Shown here one piece after another: positions 9,333 through 16,548 of a stretch of 64,000 nucleotides of DNA. The stretch lies in NCBI RefSeq assembly GCF_000430625.1, contig NZ_AUMJ01000009.1:76645-140644 (forward strand), read 5' to 3'. The notes beneath the pieces are model-generated. The model searched no databases. It was not told the origin of the DNA and saw nothing but the letters and a program-made list of their open reading frames with translations. The translations under genes were made by a program, and so were the position numbers. Every line of letters begins with the position of its first letter. Position 1 is the first letter of the stretch. This DNA is from Aneurinibacillus terranovensis DSM 18919. GTDB lineage: Bacteria > Bacillota > Bacilli > Aneurinibacillales > Aneurinibacillaceae.

Positions 9333-9941
9333 CTATAGGCGAACTTTTGCAGGAGGGGACATATACGTTAGTCGACTTTGTTTCACTCCCATTGAAATAA
9401 CACTTTCTAACATTTTCGTTGCTGCAAAAGCAGGATCTATCACCGGTACTTCATACCCGTGTTTTTTAAGCTTTTCCTGAAGAACTGCCGCTACTCCCAT
9501 CATCCCAGTACACCCTAAAACTAGTGCATGAGCTTTATCTTCTTCTATTGCTTTAATCATTTCTTCAAACAAAGCACTTTTCAATTTCTCTTTTTCATTG
9601 ACTTCTAAAACAGGTATATTCACATATCTAACGGAAGCTAAATTTCCGTTAACTCCTAATGTTTTACTAATATTTCCAATCATCGGAACAACATTGGGAA
9701 GTACAGTTACCACAGAAAAAGATTTTGCTAATAAGCTGGCAAAGAGCATCGAAGCTTCGGCTGCACCAACGACCGGAATATTGAGCACTTCACGTGCTGG
9801 TTTAACTCCCGGATCTCCAAAACAGAAACTAATAATTCCATCATACCCGTCCTTTTCAGCTTCTATCGCTTTTTCTAACAGGTTAGGTATGCACAACGCC
9901 TCATCGTATTCACATTCCACGGATTCCACAATCCCCTTCAA
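9333..9941 (-). CDS. Asp/Glu/hydantoin racemase-family protein, N-terminally short
   Basis: This 202-residue protein matches the Asp/Glu/hydantoin racemase family from EYDEALCIPNLLE onward. Both cysteines expected for two-base racemisation are present, in FCFGDPG and LGCTGMMG. The usual first 35-40 residues, with the strand that carries an N-P-N-type motif, are missing. The frame opens only at a TTG immediately after the hydantoinase stop, so the gene starts inside the family fold. It is the last gene of the sigma-54 cluster. It may be a functional short form, a start I have misjudged, or a truncated remnant. Confidence 0.75.
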   Translation of the reverse strand: MKGIVESVECEYDEALCIPNLLEKAIEAEKDGYDGIISFCFGDPGVKPAREVLNIPVVGAAEASMLFASLLAKSFSVVTVLPNVVPMIGNISKTLGVNGNLASVRYVNIPVLEVNEKEKLKSALFEEMIKAIEEDKAHALVLGCTGMMGVAAVLQEKLKKHGYEVPVIDPAFAATKMLESVISMGVKQSRLTYMSPPAKVRL

Positions 9942-11516
9942 TTAATTAACTTTTTCCAAGTTCGCCGCCAGAGTACCTGCCGCTTTGACACGAACACGTG
10001 TAGCGTTACCCGGAAGATAGGCTAATGGTACGTCTTCAATATCCACAATCTTAACAGTATCAGGATCCGCACCGGCGGTGATGGCTTCCTCAATTGCCAT
10101 CTGTTTAGCCAGTTCCAGCGTTTTTTCACGTCCCAGTTCATCCAGAGCAAAGACACGTTCGATCTGCCCGCTGACTTGGGCAATACCAGCACCGATTGCA
10201 TTTGCCACCCCGAAATCACCGGGACGAATGACGTTGGAGGCACCCTTTAGTCGATCCGGTAAGAGAATGCTTCCGCCTCCCACAAGTATCACCGGAACCG
10301 GTTCAGCGCTCGTCTTCATTTTGTCTATCGCTTCCTCAACCATTTCGACGATCTTGGTATAAACTCTTTCCAGTAAAGCTTTATCCAAATGCGCAACCTT
10401 CTCTTGTTCTCCGATATCGGCCTTTCCAAGGGCCACCGCCACATCGGTAGCTGTTAAGGTATCCCCGCCAAAGACAAGCCCCTTTTCCGGTAATCGATAG
10501 CCTACACTATCCGGCCCCACCGTAAAGCTGCCGTCTTCTTGAATGCGTACGATCGTTCCCCCTCCTAAACCGATAGAAACCAGGTCAGGCATCCGGAAAT
10601 TAGTGCGCGCCCCGCCGATCTCAACCGCCAATGAAGATTCACGTGGAAAAGAGTTGATAAGAACCCCAATATCTGTCGTTGTCCCTCCGACATCCACGAC
10701 AAGCGCATCCGATAACCCGGTAAGATAGGATGCCCCGCGGATACTGTTTGTTGGTCCGCAAGCAATCGTAAGAATTGGGTATTTGATAGCATATTCCACA
10801 TTCATAAGAGTTCCGTCGTTTTGTCCAAAGAAGACTTTGGCGTTGATCCCCTCTTCTTTTAGGGCGTTTACAAAACCTTCTGCAGTTGTTTTCGCTACAT
10901 TAACAACCGCGGAGTTAAGAATCGTGGCATTTTCACGTTCCAGAAGACCCACACTGCCGATTTCATGAGAAAGGGAGACTGGAATCTCGCTGCCTAATAC
11001 TTCATGTAAGATTTCTGCAGCACGAAGTTCATGTTGCTTGGAAACCGGTGAGAACACGGATGTTACAGCAACAGAATCGACATTGCCTTTGATTTCATGG
11101 GCTATTCTGTACAAATCGTCTTCATCAAGTTTTGCAATTTCACTTCCGTCGTACTCGTGTCCACCTCGAACAATATACGTGTATTTTCCGAGATGGCGAC
11201 GCAGATCATCAGGAACACCAACTAATGGCTTGACTGCAAGTGTCGCGGGAGCACCAATACGAATAGAGGCGATCTGATTCAAACGTTTGCGTTCCACAAG
11301 CGCATTTGTACAATGGGTTGTACCTAGCGTTGCATAATGAATCTGGCTACGTGGTACACCTGATTTTGCAATTACCTCGCGCATTGCCTTATAAATTCCT
11401 GAGCTTACATCTTCTGTCGTTGCAGACTTGGTTTTTGCTATTACTCTGTATTCACTGTCTAAAAGAACGGCATCAGTATGGGTTCCACCTACGTCAATTC
11501 CAATTCTGTAACTCAT
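9942..11516 (-). CDS. Hydantoinase/oxoprolinase (HyuA) family protein 1
   Basis: This 524-residue protein is of the short HyuA type, an ASKHA-fold ATPase subunit of hydantoinase, oxoprolinase and related carboxylases. The nucleotide-binding signatures are intact: GIDVGGTHTD (6-15), VDVGGTTTD (274-282), a GLGGGT turn, and VGGGSILLPDRL toward the C terminus. Family enzymes use ATP to activate a cyclic amide or ketone. The ATG overlaps the TGA of the upstream DUF917 gene by four bases, implying coupled translation and a two-protein enzyme. The substrate is inferred to be hydantoin-like; it cannot be read from the sequence. Confidence 0.85.
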   Translation of the reverse strand: MSYRIGIDVGGTHTDAVLLDSEYRVIAKTKSATTEDVSSGIYKAMREVIAKSGVPRSQIHYATLGTTHCTNALVERKRLNQIASIRIGAPATLAVKPLVGVPDDLRRHLGKYTYIVRGGHEYDGSEIAKLDEDDLYRIAHEIKGNVDSVAVTSVFSPVSKQHELRAAEILHEVLGSEIPVSLSHEIGSVGLLERENATILNSAVVNVAKTTAEGFVNALKEEGINAKVFFGQNDGTLMNVEYAIKYPILTIACGPTNSIRGASYLTGLSDALVVDVGGTTTDIGVLINSFPRESSLAVEIGGARTNFRMPDLVSIGLGGGTIVRIQEDGSFTVGPDSVGYRLPEKGLVFGGDTLTATDVAVALGKADIGEQEKVAHLDKALLERVYTKIVEMVEEAIDKMKTSAEPVPVILVGGGSILLPDRLKGASNVIRPGDFGVANAIGAGIAQVSGQIERVFALDELGREKTLELAKQMAIEEAITAGADPDTVKIVDIEDVPLAYLPGNATRVRVKAAGTLAANLEKVN

Positions 11517-12610
11517 TTGAGAGCAACTCCTTTTCCTACAAGTTCTTCCACCGGAATGTATTCCATTTCATAGCCAAAATAGGCAGGTCCGCATGTTTCG
11601 ATGCCCTTTGATGTACGCCATTTTGAATGACAAGGAATGCCAACCACTACAGTACGGGCTCCATAACGCAGAGCTTCTGTTGTAATCGGGAGCCCTGTTT
11701 CAGCATCAAGAACCGCAATCAGATCTGGGGTTACACACAAAAGACGGTCATCTGTCTTGGCAATTAAATGCTCATTTTGAAAACGAATTTCGAGGGTTTC
11801 TCCATAATAATCCAACAATCCTTCAATTTTCGCCGTGCCACGGGCAAACCCGGTTTCCGTTTTTCGGTTTATGTCTACCACTTTACCGCGGAATAATTCA
11901 AAACCCTTTGTTATTTTAAGCACTTCTTGAATTGGATCGACATTGTTTTCTTTAGCAAGACGAATGGATCGCCCGATCTCCTCTTCCTGTTTGAGAATAT
12001 TATGAATCCCACTTTCCTTCAGATTTCTTCCCGTCATCGGATAAATCGCAAACATCACCGCTCCGCCTTTTTGAATCGTTACACTGCGGGCAATCCGTTC
12101 CGCCCAGAGGTTATCGATGGTATTTAATAAGGTAACATTGCCTTTTTCATCGGCAATGACCATCGGCGAAGCAGAAATTCCGTCCAGATAGAAAGTAACC
12201 ATTTGTAATTCTGGAAACGCTCGCCCCATTCCATCCACGTCGACAACAGGCAATCCAAGTTGCGCAGCCAGGGCAAGCGGCAGCATGGAATTAAGGCCTC
12301 CCGCTTCAATTGGAAACGTGGCGAAAACTTCCTTCCCCATGTACTTTTCCAATGATTGGAACGCAACTTTCGCTTCATGCCCGCTTGGCGCTTTCTCAAC
12401 CATTACCGTTGGGGCTCCCATCATTCCGGACGATACTACAAACGCGTCGTCAGGAACTTCATCTACCGACAAGAGTTTGATGGGTCCGAATTCCTCTATC
12501 GCTTGAAGCGCCATCAACTTACCTATATACGGGTCCCCTCCGCCGCCGGTTCCCAGTAATGCCGCTCCAACCGCAATATCTTCAATTTCTTGTTTCCCTA
12601 AAAGTCTCAT
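11513..12610 (-). CDS. DUF917 / S-methyl-thiohydantoin desulfurase-like protein 1
   Basis: This 365-residue DUF917 protein has LGTGGGGD (19-26), GMMGAPTV, AGGLNSMLPLALAA and VDVDGMGRAFPELQM, all hallmarks of the family. The N-terminal domain is the one named for S-methyl thiohydantoin desulfurase. Members are often encoded directly before HyuA-type proteins and probably form a complex with them. It starts behind AAGGGAGAG and overlaps the next gene by four bases. It is the closer partner of the intact HyuA paralogue. Confidence 0.85.
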   Translation of the reverse strand: MRLLGKQEIEDIAVGAALLGTGGGGDPYIGKLMALQAIEEFGPIKLLSVDEVPDDAFVVSSGMMGAPTVMVEKAPSGHEAKVAFQSLEKYMGKEVFATFPIEAGGLNSMLPLALAAQLGLPVVDVDGMGRAFPELQMVTFYLDGISASPMVIADEKGNVTLLNTIDNLWAERIARSVTIQKGGAVMFAIYPMTGRNLKESGIHNILKQEEEIGRSIRLAKENNVDPIQEVLKITKGFELFRGKVVDINRKTETGFARGTAKIEGLLDYYGETLEIRFQNEHLIAKTDDRLLCVTPDLIAVLDAETGLPITTEALRYGARTVVVGIPCHSKWRTSKGIETCGPAYFGYEMEYIPVEELVGKGVALK

Positions 12611-12648: not shown

Positions 12649-13968
12649 TTAAGCTAGTTGATCAACTTCTGGATTTTTTTGACTAATAGCACTACCGAAG
12701 ATCTTCATGCCAACTAAATAGGCTATTCCGCTTACAATAAGGGAATTTATCGAAGGAATTCCAATTTCAATAAAGTAACCTGCCAATGCACCTAGTACCC
12801 AAGCTGCGAGAGTAGTAGGATTTATAGATTCGGAAGTTTCGGGTAACAGCCCCTTTTGACGACTCTCGCCCAATACCTTTCTGTCACGTTTCAGGATAAA
12901 GTAGTCCACTACCATAATCCCGGCAATCGGAGGAACCCAGACGCCAAGTAAAACTAGAAAATTAACGAATTTATCTAGAATACCCACCACCGAAAGAACT
13001 GTTCCAATTATTCCGATAATCAATGTGACGAGCCCCCGGTTCACCTTAACGTTGAATAAAGAATCGATCAGGTTCGTAATTCCCAAGGAAGAGGAATACA
13101 AATTTAAATCGTTAATTTTCACGGTGGCAAAAATCACTATGGCAGCTCCCAGCCAGCCCGTAGTTTGCAGAACAATCGTTACTACATCGCCGCTACCTAC
13201 CGCGTGTGCCATTAATACTGCAATAAGATTCACGCCGAATTCTCCAACTATCGTGCCAATCAAGGTCATCCACAAAACATCTTTGCCGTTCCGACAATAC
13301 CGGCTCATGTCAGGAGTGATTATGGCACCAATCATATATCCCCCGGCCACCATGGTAGCGGCCATTCCCAAAGAAAGCGCCGGACCGGGAGCCGGTGTAG
13401 AAATCAAGTCAACAAGCGAGTGATCTTTCAAAACTTTATAGATACCATAGGCAATAACCGCTAAAAAACCAGGTACCGCAATCCTTGCCGTCCAACTCAG
13501 CCATTTAAAACCGAAGATTACTATGAGTGTGACGAACAAACCGGTTATCGTTGCCGCTAATGGGAAGCCCAATGCACCGTTTAATGCGCCATCCAACCCC
13601 TTTGCAAATACCGAATTCTGAACTCCAAACCATCCTATCGCTCCAATAGCAATGACGGCACCAAGAATACCGGAACCATATTTGCCAAACCCTGTCCAAC
13701 GGGCTAGCAGACTCGTCGAAAGCCCTTCCCGGGCCCCAACAATTCCAATTAATAAACTAACTACTTCCAAGAGAACACTGCCAAGCATAGTGGCCCAAAA
13801 AGCCTGCCAAAATGTCATACCGTACCCGAGTGCCGATCCCAGCATAAATTGAGACAGAGTTGTAAGGGCACCAAGACGTACCAACAGGACTTCCCACATA
13901 GGCAGGCGCGCCCCAGCGGGTACCCTGGTCAGTGAAAAATCATCTGCCATATTGGAGTTCCCATTCAT
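12649..13968 (-). CDS. NCS1-family permease (cytosine/hydantoin-type)
   Basis: This 439-residue protein has about 12 hydrophobic segments and belongs to the nucleobase-cation-symport-1 family, close in appearance to CodB. Typical features are the N-terminal PAGARLPMWEVLLVRLGALT loop, GWFGVQNSVFAKGLDG, and ITPDMSRYCRNGKDVLW in the middle. NCS1 carriers import cytosine, allantoin, hydantoins or related rings with a cation. Its place between the two DUF917/HyuA pairs argues that it brings in their substrate. AAGGAGA lies nine bases before the ATG at 13968; the TTG at 13977 is less likely. Confidence 0.85.
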   Translation of the reverse strand: MNGNSNMADDFSLTRVPAGARLPMWEVLLVRLGALTTLSQFMLGSALGYGMTFWQAFWATMLGSVLLEVVSLLIGIVGAREGLSTSLLARWTGFGKYGSGILGAVIAIGAIGWFGVQNSVFAKGLDGALNGALGFPLAATITGLFVTLIVIFGFKWLSWTARIAVPGFLAVIAYGIYKVLKDHSLVDLISTPAPGPALSLGMAATMVAGGYMIGAIITPDMSRYCRNGKDVLWMTLIGTIVGEFGVNLIAVLMAHAVGSGDVVTIVLQTTGWLGAAIVIFATVKINDLNLYSSSLGITNLIDSLFNVKVNRGLVTLIIGIIGTVLSVVGILDKFVNFLVLLGVWVPPIAGIMVVDYFILKRDRKVLGESRQKGLLPETSESINPTTLAAWVLGALAGYFIEIGIPSINSLIVSGIAYLVGMKIFGSAISQKNPEVDQLA

Positions 13969-14015
13969 TTTTCGCAATCTCCTTCTTTACTATCGATTTT
14001 TTTGAAAAATGGATT

Positions 14016-15389
14016 TTAAAAGAGCGAACCAATTGCCTTAACCTGAACCCTCAAAGCTTGACTCGAAATATAGGCCAACGGAGTTACTTTAATGGATTTG
14101 GCCATCACGGATGCTGGATCAACTCCAGCAAGAATCGCTTCTTGCACAGCTTCTTGTGTAGCCATTTTCACGGCTTCCTCTCGCCCTATTCCTTTTAACC
14201 AATACATTCGATCCACATTCCCACTGATAGGGGCAATACAGGCACCAATTGCACAAACATGAGCATAATAAGGAGGATGAACAACATCAGACCAAGGAAA
14301 TCGAAACTTTGCCTCCAACTCTTTACTCGCCTCTCCTACAAAAACAATGGGGAGAGGATCATATCGGGGTTGAAACCGTTGAACCACTTGAAAAACGGCA
14401 TCCAATTTATCATCACTAATGGAATTCTCTCCTCCAAAAGGGAGTGTAACAATTTCAGGTACCGGCACATTAACGTGGATCCCTGCGATTGGAGTTTTTT
14501 GCCACCTCTCTTTAGGAAATCCTCCCTCTAATACTCCAATGCATGTTCTCTTTCTCCCTACATCCACAACAATACAGTCATTAAGTTGGGTGAGATAAGA
14601 AGCCCCCCTAAGACTTGTTGTCATCCCGGAATAGAGCGTACGGATCGGATAACGCAAAGCATAGTCATAAGACATTAACGATCCATCATTTTGCACGAGA
14701 TAAATACCAGCTTCGATACTAAGTTTCTGTAAAAGATGATCTAAACCTTGTAAGGCTCGCTTCATTACCTTGGATAAAGCGGCATTAAGAATCGCCGCGT
14801 TTTCACGCTCAAGAAATCCGATGCTTCCCAGTTCATGGGACAAGGTAAAAGAATGTCCCTTACCCAATCTGTCTTGGATCCACCCCATGACCATTCGTTC
14901 ATGACTATCATTCACCGGTGAGAAAGTGCCGGTAATGGCAAAGGCATCTATACGTTTCACATTGATTGATTGAAGAAACACATCAATCTCTGTGCGAGAA
15001 GGTGGAGATTTGGAAATCCTCCCATCCACTTCATGGCCACCTTGCAACTCATAATAAACGAGTCCCATCGCCTGTCGAAAAAATTCTGATCCTTCATATA
15101 ACGGGGGAATGCTACCTCTGGCTTGCGAAATCCGAACAGCGCATACCTGAGCCAGATTTCTCTCCTCCAGCAAAGTATCAAGAAAAAGGTTTGTCCCAAT
15201 CATTACCGCTGTAATGTCAGCCGGGCTAACGTTTGTTTGTTTTAAGAGATGTGCGATCAAAGACTGAATTCCTGTCATTACGTCCGGTGTTGTTGATTGG
15301 CTGGCAAAGGTGAGAATATGAAAACTATGATCCATCAGTACGCCATCGGTTTTTTCTCTACCGACATCAATACCTAAACGAAACATCAT
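14016..15389 (-). CDS. Degenerate HyuA-family paralogue (probable pseudo-ATPase)
   Basis: This 457-residue protein aligns with the downstream HyuA paralogue along its length (SHE(L/I)GS(I/V)GFLERENA, QNDG(S/T)LM, RGASYLT, LAYI/LAYL near the end). The ATP-site motifs are altered: GIDVGGTHTD has become GIDVGREKTD, VDVGGTTTD has become VDVGRKRTC, GLGGGT has become LPFGGEN, and VGGGSILL has become VGEASKEL. The reading frame is intact and has a good GGGGAGG site, so this is not simple decay. It overlaps the partner DUF917 gene by 23 bases. A structural or regulatory partner role is inferred. Confidence 0.8.
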   Translation of the reverse strand: MMFRLGIDVGREKTDGVLMDHSFHILTFASQSTTPDVMTGIQSLIAHLLKQTNVSPADITAVMIGTNLFLDTLLEERNLAQVCAVRISQARGSIPPLYEGSEFFRQAMGLVYYELQGGHEVDGRISKSPPSRTEIDVFLQSINVKRIDAFAITGTFSPVNDSHERMVMGWIQDRLGKGHSFTLSHELGSIGFLERENAAILNAALSKVMKRALQGLDHLLQKLSIEAGIYLVQNDGSLMSYDYALRYPIRTLYSGMTTSLRGASYLTQLNDCIVVDVGRKRTCIGVLEGGFPKERWQKTPIAGIHVNVPVPEIVTLPFGGENSISDDKLDAVFQVVQRFQPRYDPLPIVFVGEASKELEAKFRFPWSDVVHPPYYAHVCAIGACIAPISGNVDRMYWLKGIGREEAVKMATQEAVQEAILAGVDPASVMAKSIKVTPLAYISSQALRVQVKAIGSLF

Positions 15390-16506
15390 TTTCTTCCTCC
15401 CCTTCTTGAAGCTGAAGTTGTTCCGTTGGAAAAAACTCGTTAGCAATACCAAAACATCTTGGCCCTACGATCTCAAGCATTTTTGAATCACGAAGCAATG
15501 GTGGACTTGGAATTGCGATCACCCATACTTTTCGATGGTTTTCCAGTTCCTCAATCATGATGGGATTCCCCGTATCCGCATCCAATACACAAATGAGATC
15601 CGGAACCATAGCTAGTGCTCGCTCTCCTTTCTTAGCAAACAAGTATTCATTTCTAAATAAGATTTCGACTTGCTCACCTACGAAAAAGCTGGCTCCTTCT
15701 ACTATAAGAGTACCACTTAATAAACCACCGACTATGTTTCGTTGAATATCCACCACTTTTCCTTCGATTAATTTGTACGGCCTTCCATAAATGGAATTTT
15801 CAAATATTTCGACTAATCGAACAACAATCCGATCGATATTTGCATGGGCCGCCTTTACGGCTTCCCCAAGTCGTATGGCGAGGGAAAACGTTTGGTGAAG
15901 AGCGACTTCCCGTACCTCCATTCCCCGCATAGGATAACCGGAAATCGCTGCCCATCCCCCTAATTCCATGACCTTACGACGTGCCTCATCCTCCACTTTT
16001 TCATTCGAGGCTTCTGAAAACCGGTAACATCCCCCACAATCATTCACCATCATTAAGGGGGAAGCCTGAATTCCAAACGCATGGAAAGTGGTCATCTGCA
16101 GTTCCGGAAATGCCCGTCCCATACCGTCGCTATCTAAAAGGGGAAGTTTAGACAACGCTGCTGTCAGCACGGGAACCATGGCATTCATTCCTCCAATTTC
16201 CAAACCCATCACAGCTCCAACAGAAATATTTTTTTCCATTTCTAACTCACGAATGGCTGTAGGTATTTCCGTTCCTGTAAGGATTTTTTCATTCAAAACT
16301 GTCGGGGAACCCATAATGGCTACTGGAACCACCCATTCTTCATCAACCACTCTAAATGGCGACAGTAGTGGAACCGGCCCTTCCTCACGGATGGCCCGAA
16401 GCGCGAGTAACTCAAGCAAGGTACTGTCTCCACCACCTCCAGAACCCAGATACTTAGCACCATAAGCTAGCGACTGAACATCTTGTTCCGTTATATGCTT
16501 TTTCAT
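15367..16506 (-). CDS. DUF917 / S-methyl-thiohydantoin desulfurase-like protein 2
   Basis: This 379-residue protein is the paralogue of the DUF917 protein at 11513-12610, and its family motifs are all kept: LGSGGGGD, IMGSPTV, LEIGGMNAMVPV and DSDGMGRAFPELQM. The ATG at 16506, behind GAGGGG, is chosen over the TTG at 16536 because the TTG lies inside the sigma-54 promoter. It is the first gene of the operon. That DUF917 is intact while its HyuA partner has lost its ATP motifs suggests DUF917 carries the chemistry in this pair. Confidence 0.85.
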   Translation of the reverse strand: MKKHITEQDVQSLAYGAKYLGSGGGGDSTLLELLALRAIREEGPVPLLSPFRVVDEEWVVPVAIMGSPTVLNEKILTGTEIPTAIRELEMEKNISVGAVMGLEIGGMNAMVPVLTAALSKLPLLDSDGMGRAFPELQMTTFHAFGIQASPLMMVNDCGGCYRFSEASNEKVEDEARRKVMELGGWAAISGYPMRGMEVREVALHQTFSLAIRLGEAVKAAHANIDRIVVRLVEIFENSIYGRPYKLIEGKVVDIQRNIVGGLLSGTLIVEGASFFVGEQVEILFRNEYLFAKKGERALAMVPDLICVLDADTGNPIMIEELENHRKVWVIAIPSPPLLRDSKMLEIVGPRCFGIANEFFPTEQLQLQEGEEENDVSFRY

Positions 16507-16531: not shown

Positions 16532-16548
16532 AGCAAATCTCATGCCAA
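16532..16548 (-). promoter_or_regulatory. Sigma-54 (-24/-12) promoter of the hydantoin-like operon
   Basis: TTGGCATGAGATTTGCT on the minus strand matches the TTGGCACN5TTGCW consensus at all but one position, with GG and GC at the required spacing. The start point would be near 16521, about 15 bases before the ATG at 16506, leaving room for the GAGGGG ribosome site. The neighbouring gene is a sigma-54 activator. Confidence 0.85.

Follow-up and report, generated by a model that had tools for sequence, protein, structure and literature searches.

A hydantoinase A paralogue with altered phosphate loops and its DUF917 partner as a candidate ligand-sensing pair beside a sigma-54 activator

The stretch of Aneurinibacillus terranovensis DNA analysed here (64,000 nucleotides of contig NZ_AUMJ01000009.1, hereafter the window) carries two pairs of genes, each encoding a DUF917 protein and a protein of the hydantoinase A (HyuA) type. 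The HyuA of the first pair (HyuA-1, with DUF917-1) has intact ATP motifs, and that of the second pair (HyuA-2, with DUF917-2) departs from them at every glycine-rich loop. What purpose is served by a second pair whose ATP-binding half appears to have been disabled? A preliminary description of the sequence had read HyuA-2 as a pseudo-ATPase, acting as a scaffold or taking part in a different chemistry. We examined the gene and its relatives across Bacilli and Clostridia with respect to motifs, selection, gene neighborhood and promoters, and weighed the roles that these features suggest.

The HyuA-2 gene and its nucleotide motifs

The intact frame claimed in the preliminary description was borne out at the coordinates given; it lies on the minus strand and has 457 codons plus stop, with no internal stop codon, and all four of the quoted motif replacements are present in the HyuA-2 sequence (Table 1). 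BLASTP aligns HyuA-1 and HyuA-2 across 521 columns, at 33% identity and with 70 gap positions, and HyuA-2 matches Hydant_A_N with 72.9 bits and Hydantoinase_A with 54.5 bits (Pfam gathering scores 25.2 and 22.9, respectively), the latter match spanning only model positions 1-138 of 291. The phosphate loops read DVGRE and DVGRK, DxGGT of both PHOSPHATE 1 and PHOSPHATE 2 being absent, and LPFGGEN stands where HyuA-1 has GLGGGT. Two further loops, TLGTTHCTNA and CGPTN, are likewise changed; by our reading of the alignment they would lie near the substrate pocket proposed for the alpha subunit of acetophenone carboxylase (Apc).

Table 1. Features of the HyuA-2 locus in the window
Feature	Position	Strand	Basis
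Asp/Glu/hydantoin racemase, without N-terminal part	9333..9941	minus	PF01177 from position 40
HyuA-1, intact ATP motifs	9942..11516	minus	Pfam, alignment
DUF917-1	11513..12610	minus	Pfam
NCS1-type permease (cytosine/purine/allantoin family)	12649..13977	minus	PF02133, E 4.4e-23
HyuA-2, pseudo-ATPase paralogue of hydantoinase A, 457 aa	14016..15389	minus	open frame, Pfam, clade of 17 copies
VGEASKEL (HyuA-1 VGGGSILL)	14316..14339	minus	coordinates counted from ATG
Approximate junction of missing ~65 residues (HyuA-1 ~320-390)	14406..14435	minus	BLASTP alignment and secondary structure
Phosphate-2 position, VDVGRKRTC (HyuA-1 VDVGGTTTD)	14541..14567	minus	coordinates counted from ATG
Phosphate-1 position, GIDVGREKTD (HyuA-1 GIDVGGTHTD)	15345..15374	minus	coordinates counted from ATG
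DUF917-2 (S-Me-THD-like), HyuA-2 partner gene	15367..16506	minus	clade with 27 other activator-linked DUF917-2
Sigma-54 (-24/-12) promoter-like site before DUF917-2, TGGCATGAGATTTGCT	16532..16547	minus	one mismatch; conserved in 9 further loci
REG, PAS / sigma-54 activator (NtrC class), 468 aa	16745..18151	minus	PF00158, E 2.4e-73; PAS, E 0.00023

The claim that all ATP-binding motifs are altered holds for the Gly-Gly-Thr loops, but not for the first Asp of PHOSPHATE 1 and of PHOSPHATE 2, both of which are kept in the window's HyuA-2. According to the accessible text of PMC8453981, caprolactamase requires the matching Asp residues for good activity (D11A, D295A). The motif replacements had been described correctly, but a further change had been missed: approximately 65 residues, whose HyuA-1 equivalents hold VGPDSVGY and GGDTLTATD, are gone from HyuA-2, and the HyuA-2 model shows no equivalent of HyuA-1 strands 321-325 and 331-337 or of helices 339-345, 356-362 and 371-374. 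The ADENOSINE motif (GxxPGP), given for Apc and CapA in the available portions of PMC5214803 and PMC8453981, aligns with this deleted segment; at that position HyuA-1 itself reads GYRLPEKG, without PGP. From its sequence, HyuA-2 very probably does not use ATP in the normal way.

HyuA-2 is nevertheless predicted with a complete fold (mean pLDDT 89.9, pTM 0.89), and a Foldseek search with the model matched N-methylhydantoinase (9h03 chain A, TM 0.81), acetophenone carboxylase (5l9w_B, 0.80) and caprolactamase (6yra_A, 0.74), the same set of structures that the HyuA-1 model matches (9h03, 5l9w_B, 6yra). Across six close pairs, dN/dS was 0.087-0.177 for HyuA-2, 0.029-0.075 for HyuA-1 and 0.051-0.141 for DUF917-2; these Nei-Gojobori values are rough, several dS being near or above 1, and HyuA-2 evolves faster than HyuA-1 in the same six pairs. 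As judged from the predicted model and these ratios, HyuA-2 is a folded, maintained protein.

Conservation and age of the altered pair

HyuA-2 was found in 12 of 398 Bacilli genomes, in 10 of 39 genomes of one family (six of them already counted) and in 1 of 23 of another (already counted), amounting to 17 copies in 16 Bacilli genomes, the window included; a phylum search of 398 mostly non-Bacilli genomes detected the Bacilli type only in the window's own genome. When these orthologues were aligned, as the preliminary description had proposed, no copy had all motifs intact (17 of 17 altered) and recent decay was not seen. All 17 are without the phosphate-2 GG, the GGG of VGGGS and the 65-residue segment that includes the ADENOSINE stretch, and the GGT of phosphate 1 is gone from 16, genome G401 being the exception that keeps it; Asp8 is kept in 15 and Asp275 in 13. 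Among 100 distinct HyuA rows (106 minus six duplicates), all three motifs are intact in 82, and the other 18 are the 17 HyuA-2 copies and the HyuA of genome G219. This shared altered state, together with purifying selection and an intact predicted fold, supports the pseudo-ATPase claim. The letters that replace GGT vary from one orthologue to the next, so that the loops look freed from constraint and not re-tuned, and a new fixed binding motif was rejected for the same reason.

In a tree built without the motif columns, the 17 HyuA-2 proteins form one clade (96/93) apart from 22 HyuA-1 rows (100/99). A more distant relative outside this clade, in genome G204, is also linked to the activator gene REG and has its motifs intact, and because of this the intact form probably preceded the decay of HyuA-2. 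G204 and G219 join each other in both the HyuA and the DUF917 trees, a grouping that links long branches and may be false; if it holds, motif loss would have happened at least twice. On the evidence of these alignments, the motif loss in HyuA-2 is old and not due to chance.

The loss is also unevenly spread over the protein. Canonical HyuA has 120 columns with 95% identity or more; Bacilli HyuA-2 retains 57 of them and the three aligned Clostridial copies retain 17, a column being counted as kept if conserved in 80% of rows. Near-invariant columns were lost at 28 of 34 nucleotide-site positions versus 36 of 87 elsewhere (121 columns, 80 distinct rows, p 4e-5), a strong enrichment; with the deleted segment left out the nucleotide-site loss was 15 of 21, a modest enrichment (p 0.016). 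In DUF917-2, whose 3' end the HyuA-2 start overlaps by 23 nt, 49 of 68 near-invariant columns are kept in Bacilli and 46 of 68 in Clostridia, as counted against a canonical set that contains some duplicate rows, and the DxDxMGRAFxE block is present. Taken together, these counts indicate that decay was far stronger in the ATP half than in the DUF917 half. Both DUF917-1 and DUF917-2 exceed the cut-offs of PF06032 and PF20906, and their scores fall far below those of the NCBIfam S-methyl thiohydantoin desulfurase equivalogs. A branch with 100/98 support separates all 28 DUF917-2 proteins that are linked to REG from 39 other DUF917 proteins (a selection, and with long branches at G204 and G219); this single clade means that the module either predates the divergence of the Bacilli and Clostridia sampled here or was transferred from one group to the other.

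Linkage to the activator REG and position of the promoters

REG has the PAS-AAA-HTH architecture of the NtrC class, and its best NCBIfam match, PrdR, is below cut-off. Sixteen of the 17 HyuA-2 loci, including the window, share the gene order REG, DUF917-2, HyuA-2, permease, DUF917-1, HyuA-1 and usually racemase; the 17th (G400b) consists only of REG-DUF917-2-HyuA-2, with a full locus elsewhere in the genome. Genome G219 has a solitary REG-DUF917-2-HyuA-2 group (L058 / L107) and no other DUF917 gene, its only other HyuA being a distantly related 709-aa type located elsewhere. REG adjoins pair 2 in 28 of 28 loci (the 17 HyuA-2 loci, those of G204 and G219, and nine in Clostridia) and occurs in 2 of the 55 HyuA/DUF917 loci without pair 2, the latter comprising 40 canonical loci, L021, L074-L076 and 11 from Clostridia. 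The two are L148, whose contig ends inside REG, and L166, in which REG and a perfect sigma-54 site are present and DUF917-2 is absent from the stretch read. Fisher's test gives p 4e-20 with relatedness ignored, which we read only as "very uneven"; before the Clostridia loci were added, REG was absent from all 44 canonical-only loci.

Among 20 Clostridia loci read, 11 contain REG, and in nine of these REG, DUF917-2 and one more gene follow each other in the same direction, divergent from permease-DUF917-1-HyuA-1 (at L165, only HyuA-1 and racemase were matched on the divergent side). The gene behind DUF917-2 is a decayed HyuA, found via its neighborhood (that of L155 also gave a weak partial match in the phylum search). 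In profile comparisons, four of the nine match HyuA-2 strongly (E 6e-39, 436 columns); the other five give a weak match (probability 75%, E 2.7e-5) that HyuA-1 gives about equally, and their assignment therefore rests partly on gene order. The proteins of approximately 400 aa in this position (L154 1805-3013, L156 14189-15391, L163 15232-16476, L151 14250-15452, L152 1935-3137) are taken as very decayed HyuA because of their gene order and a weak profile similarity; the two that were scanned, from L151 and L156, have no Pfam assignment. None of five Clostridial pseudo-HyuA proteins scanned reached the Pfam cut-off, and neither Asp of the phosphate motifs is found in any of the three copies examined.

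The loci also vary in other respects. The permease frame is broken in two in genome G391, and permease and/or HyuA frames are split at L128 (8149-9712 and 5752-7073), L143 (5985-7287) and L053 (7208-8231), possibly as pseudogenes or through sequencing errors. Genomes G001 and G014 have an extra DUF917/HyuA pair with intact motifs (L062 4958-7671, minus; L147 7089-9829), which in G001 lies in the same cluster. The window's racemase is without about 40 N-terminal residues and without an ATG, its in-frame start coming directly after the HyuA-1 stop; in G001 and G014 the full N-terminus is found at the same place, and the truncation is probably a 5' deletion in this strain.

Sigma-54 sites fall into distinct positions. 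Ten loci (window, G001, G002, G004, G014, G204, G219, G256, G284, G401) have a -24/-12 site (0-2 mismatches) in front of DUF917-2, which makes pair 2 itself a target there. In seven Bacilli loci (G355, G364, G382, G391, G398, G399, G400a) the site lies between HyuA-2 and the permease (0-1 mismatch), and REG and DUF917-2 are separated by a gap of 16-55 nt that has no such site. In eight Clostridia loci a site with 0-1 mismatch in the gap between REG and permease points at the permease, and none points toward REG. Pair 2 is thus inside the REG unit and outside the target operon in 15 of 28 loci, is not so placed in 10, and has no acceptable site in three (G240, G400b and L165, with near misses at the first two). 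Control loci seldom have such sites: 1 of 44 canonical-only loci and 1 of 8 scanned Clostridia loci lacking REG, each with two mismatches, L162 being left out since its contig begins in the permease; the two REG-bearing loci without pair 2 (L148, L166) both have perfect sites. The window as a whole holds 27 matches with up to two mismatches against 29.5 expected, so the window's site by itself is at chance level and only its conservation counts. The inverted repeats in the gap between REG and DUF917-2 are AT-rich. A sigma-54 gene is present in the window's genome, and a 2025 survey, in its accessible text, counts N-methylhydantoinase A (COG0145) as one of the genes that in Bacilli are for the most part sigma-54-dependent (PMC12316311); a connection with sigma-54 was therefore already known.

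Candidate roles of pair 2 and comparison with known systems

The sequences establish that HyuA-2 has lost its nucleotide loops and a subdomain, that it is under purifying selection, belongs to an old clade and is linked with REG, and where the promoters lie. The constant company of REG, and the place of pair 2 in the REG unit in 15 loci, point to regulation; on the same grounds, the scaffold or different chemistry that had been suggested is less likely. We therefore favor, with a probability of about 0.52, the reading that pair 2 is an enzyme pair turned ligand-sensing co-regulator of REG. DUF917-2 and HyuA-2, as a non-phosphorylating twin of the HyuA-1/DUF917-1 enzyme, would form a complex like that of pair 1, in which the DUF917-2 half would bind the hydantoin-like or cyclic-dipeptide-like substrate of the pathway without ATP turnover; the pair would then contact REG, freeing or blocking it, and REG would switch on the permease-DUF917-1-HyuA-1-racemase operon via the -24/-12 promoter.

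As for the ligand, the operons of two relatives contain a gene that we take to be membrane-dipeptidase-like (L062 7681-8685, minus; L061 14082-15110, plus), a hint of dipeptide or cyclic dipeptide chemistry. The available part of PMC11055893 describes clusters in which DUF917 and hydantoin racemase genes accompany cyclodipeptide oxidases. Because of these two observations and the families of the permease and racemase, a hydantoin or a cyclic dipeptide is the likely substrate of the pathway.

Several observations weigh against a sensor. In 10 of 28 loci, including the window, pair 2 lies within the induced operon, as would be expected of an enzyme subunit; G219 has a site before DUF917-2 but no visible target; the REG-linked HyuA of G204 retains its ATP motifs; three pair-2 loci have no acceptable site; L166 combines REG and a perfect site with no DUF917-2 in the stretch read; and REG's own PAS domain could sense alone. 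The window layout, with pair 2 first in a sigma-54 operon, and the case of G219 keep our confidence near one half. A broader version, in which a DUF917-HyuA enzyme was duplicated once across Bacilli and Clostridia and became a sigma-54 sensor, DUF917 keeping its ligand site and HyuA losing ATP binding and, in Clostridia, decaying beyond Pfam recognition, is put forward tentatively, at slightly less than even odds.

An unlikely alternative, yet the one that survives best, is a single mixed complex of both pairs, which HyuA-2 would join as a scaffold or regulatory subunit, as alpha' joins Apc, one kinase site of the complex being dead. Sixteen of the 17 HyuA-2 copies have pair 1 in the same locus, and the remaining one (G400b) comes from a genome with another full locus; pair 2 shares the operon's sigma-54 promoter, or stands alone under one, in 10 loci; and Apc, in the text of PMC5214803 available, has two HyuA-like subunits. 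The same text has Apc alpha' retaining its ATP motifs, however, and neither the position of pair 2 in the activator's unit in 15 loci, outside the catabolic unit, nor G219, with an altered pair, no other DUF917 and one distant 709-aa HyuA, is what a mixed complex would lead one to expect. It is quite unlikely that pair 2 is an ATP-independent enzyme, in which DUF917-2 would be the catalyst, acting on an activated substrate, and HyuA-2 its structural partner. DUF917-2 does keep most near-invariant residues, DxDxMGRAFxE included, and NCBIfam names its relatives thiohydantoin desulfurases (both DUF917 matches being far below cut-offs), but such an enzyme leaves unexplained the constant company of a sigma-54 activator and the activator-unit place in 15 loci. 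Unusual nucleotide binding by HyuA-2, for instance as an energy sensor, is improbable: Asp8 and Asp275 persist in most Bacilli copies (15 and 13 of 17), and their caprolactamase equivalents matter (D11A, D295A; PMC8453981, as far as its accessible text goes), yet the Gly-Gly-Thr loops and the ADENOSINE-aligned stretch are lost, the replacing letters vary, and three Clostridial copies examined lack both Asp residues. Recent random decay of a useless duplicate, which the variable letters and the faster evolution of HyuA-2 relative to HyuA-1 might suggest, is scarcely credible given 17 intact frames, a conserved operon, a conserved altered state and dN/dS well below 1 in all six pairs, and is ruled out unless the window copy alone is silent.

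Pseudoenzymes and enzyme-derived regulators are already known kinds. In the literature searched, we found no description of a HyuA-type pseudo-ATPase, of DUF917 in regulation, or of a dead HyuA/DUF917 pair tied to an activator. If the co-regulator reading is true, a catabolic enzyme would supply its own inducer receptor, its substrate site reporting to a gene switch, the PAS/sigma-54 activator would have a testable partner, and the automatic annotation of HyuA-2 and DUF917-2 as hydantoinases would be misleading. It also suggests a role for the Clostridial proteins without Pfam assignment.

Several known systems share part of this design. HyuA-2 resembles the HyuA of the ATP-dependent hydantoinase/oxoprolinase/caprolactamase family (PF05378 and PF01968) in its fold, its Pfam domains and its LERENxxxLN and QNDG blocks, and differs in its altered phosphate loops, the deleted ADENOSINE stretch and its length (457 aa versus ~525-700); its partner is a DUF917 protein, whereas caprolactamase CapA partners CapB. 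DUF917-1 and DUF917-2 share both domains of S-methyl thiohydantoin desulfurase / DUF917 proteins (PF06032, PF20906), but score far below the equivalog cut-offs. ROK-family repressors such as NagC and Mlc are regulators with a sugar-kinase fold that have lost kinase activity; they have a DNA-binding domain of their own, whereas HyuA-2 has none by Pfam and REG would supply DNA binding. DhaR is a sigma-54-class activator ruled by the kinase subunits DhaK and DhaL. It is activated by DHA, according to the accessible portion of PMC6643234. As a PAS-bearing NtrC-class activator beside a kinase that may report substrate, it offers a model for the REG relay, with the difference that DhaK/DhaL is a working enzyme and that here a separate dead copy would serve. 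Acetophenone carboxylase (5l9w) likewise has two HyuA-like paralogues, alpha and alpha', in one system; unlike HyuA-2, both of these keep ADENOSINE, PHOSPHATE 1 and PHOSPHATE 2, as given in the available text of PMC5214803.
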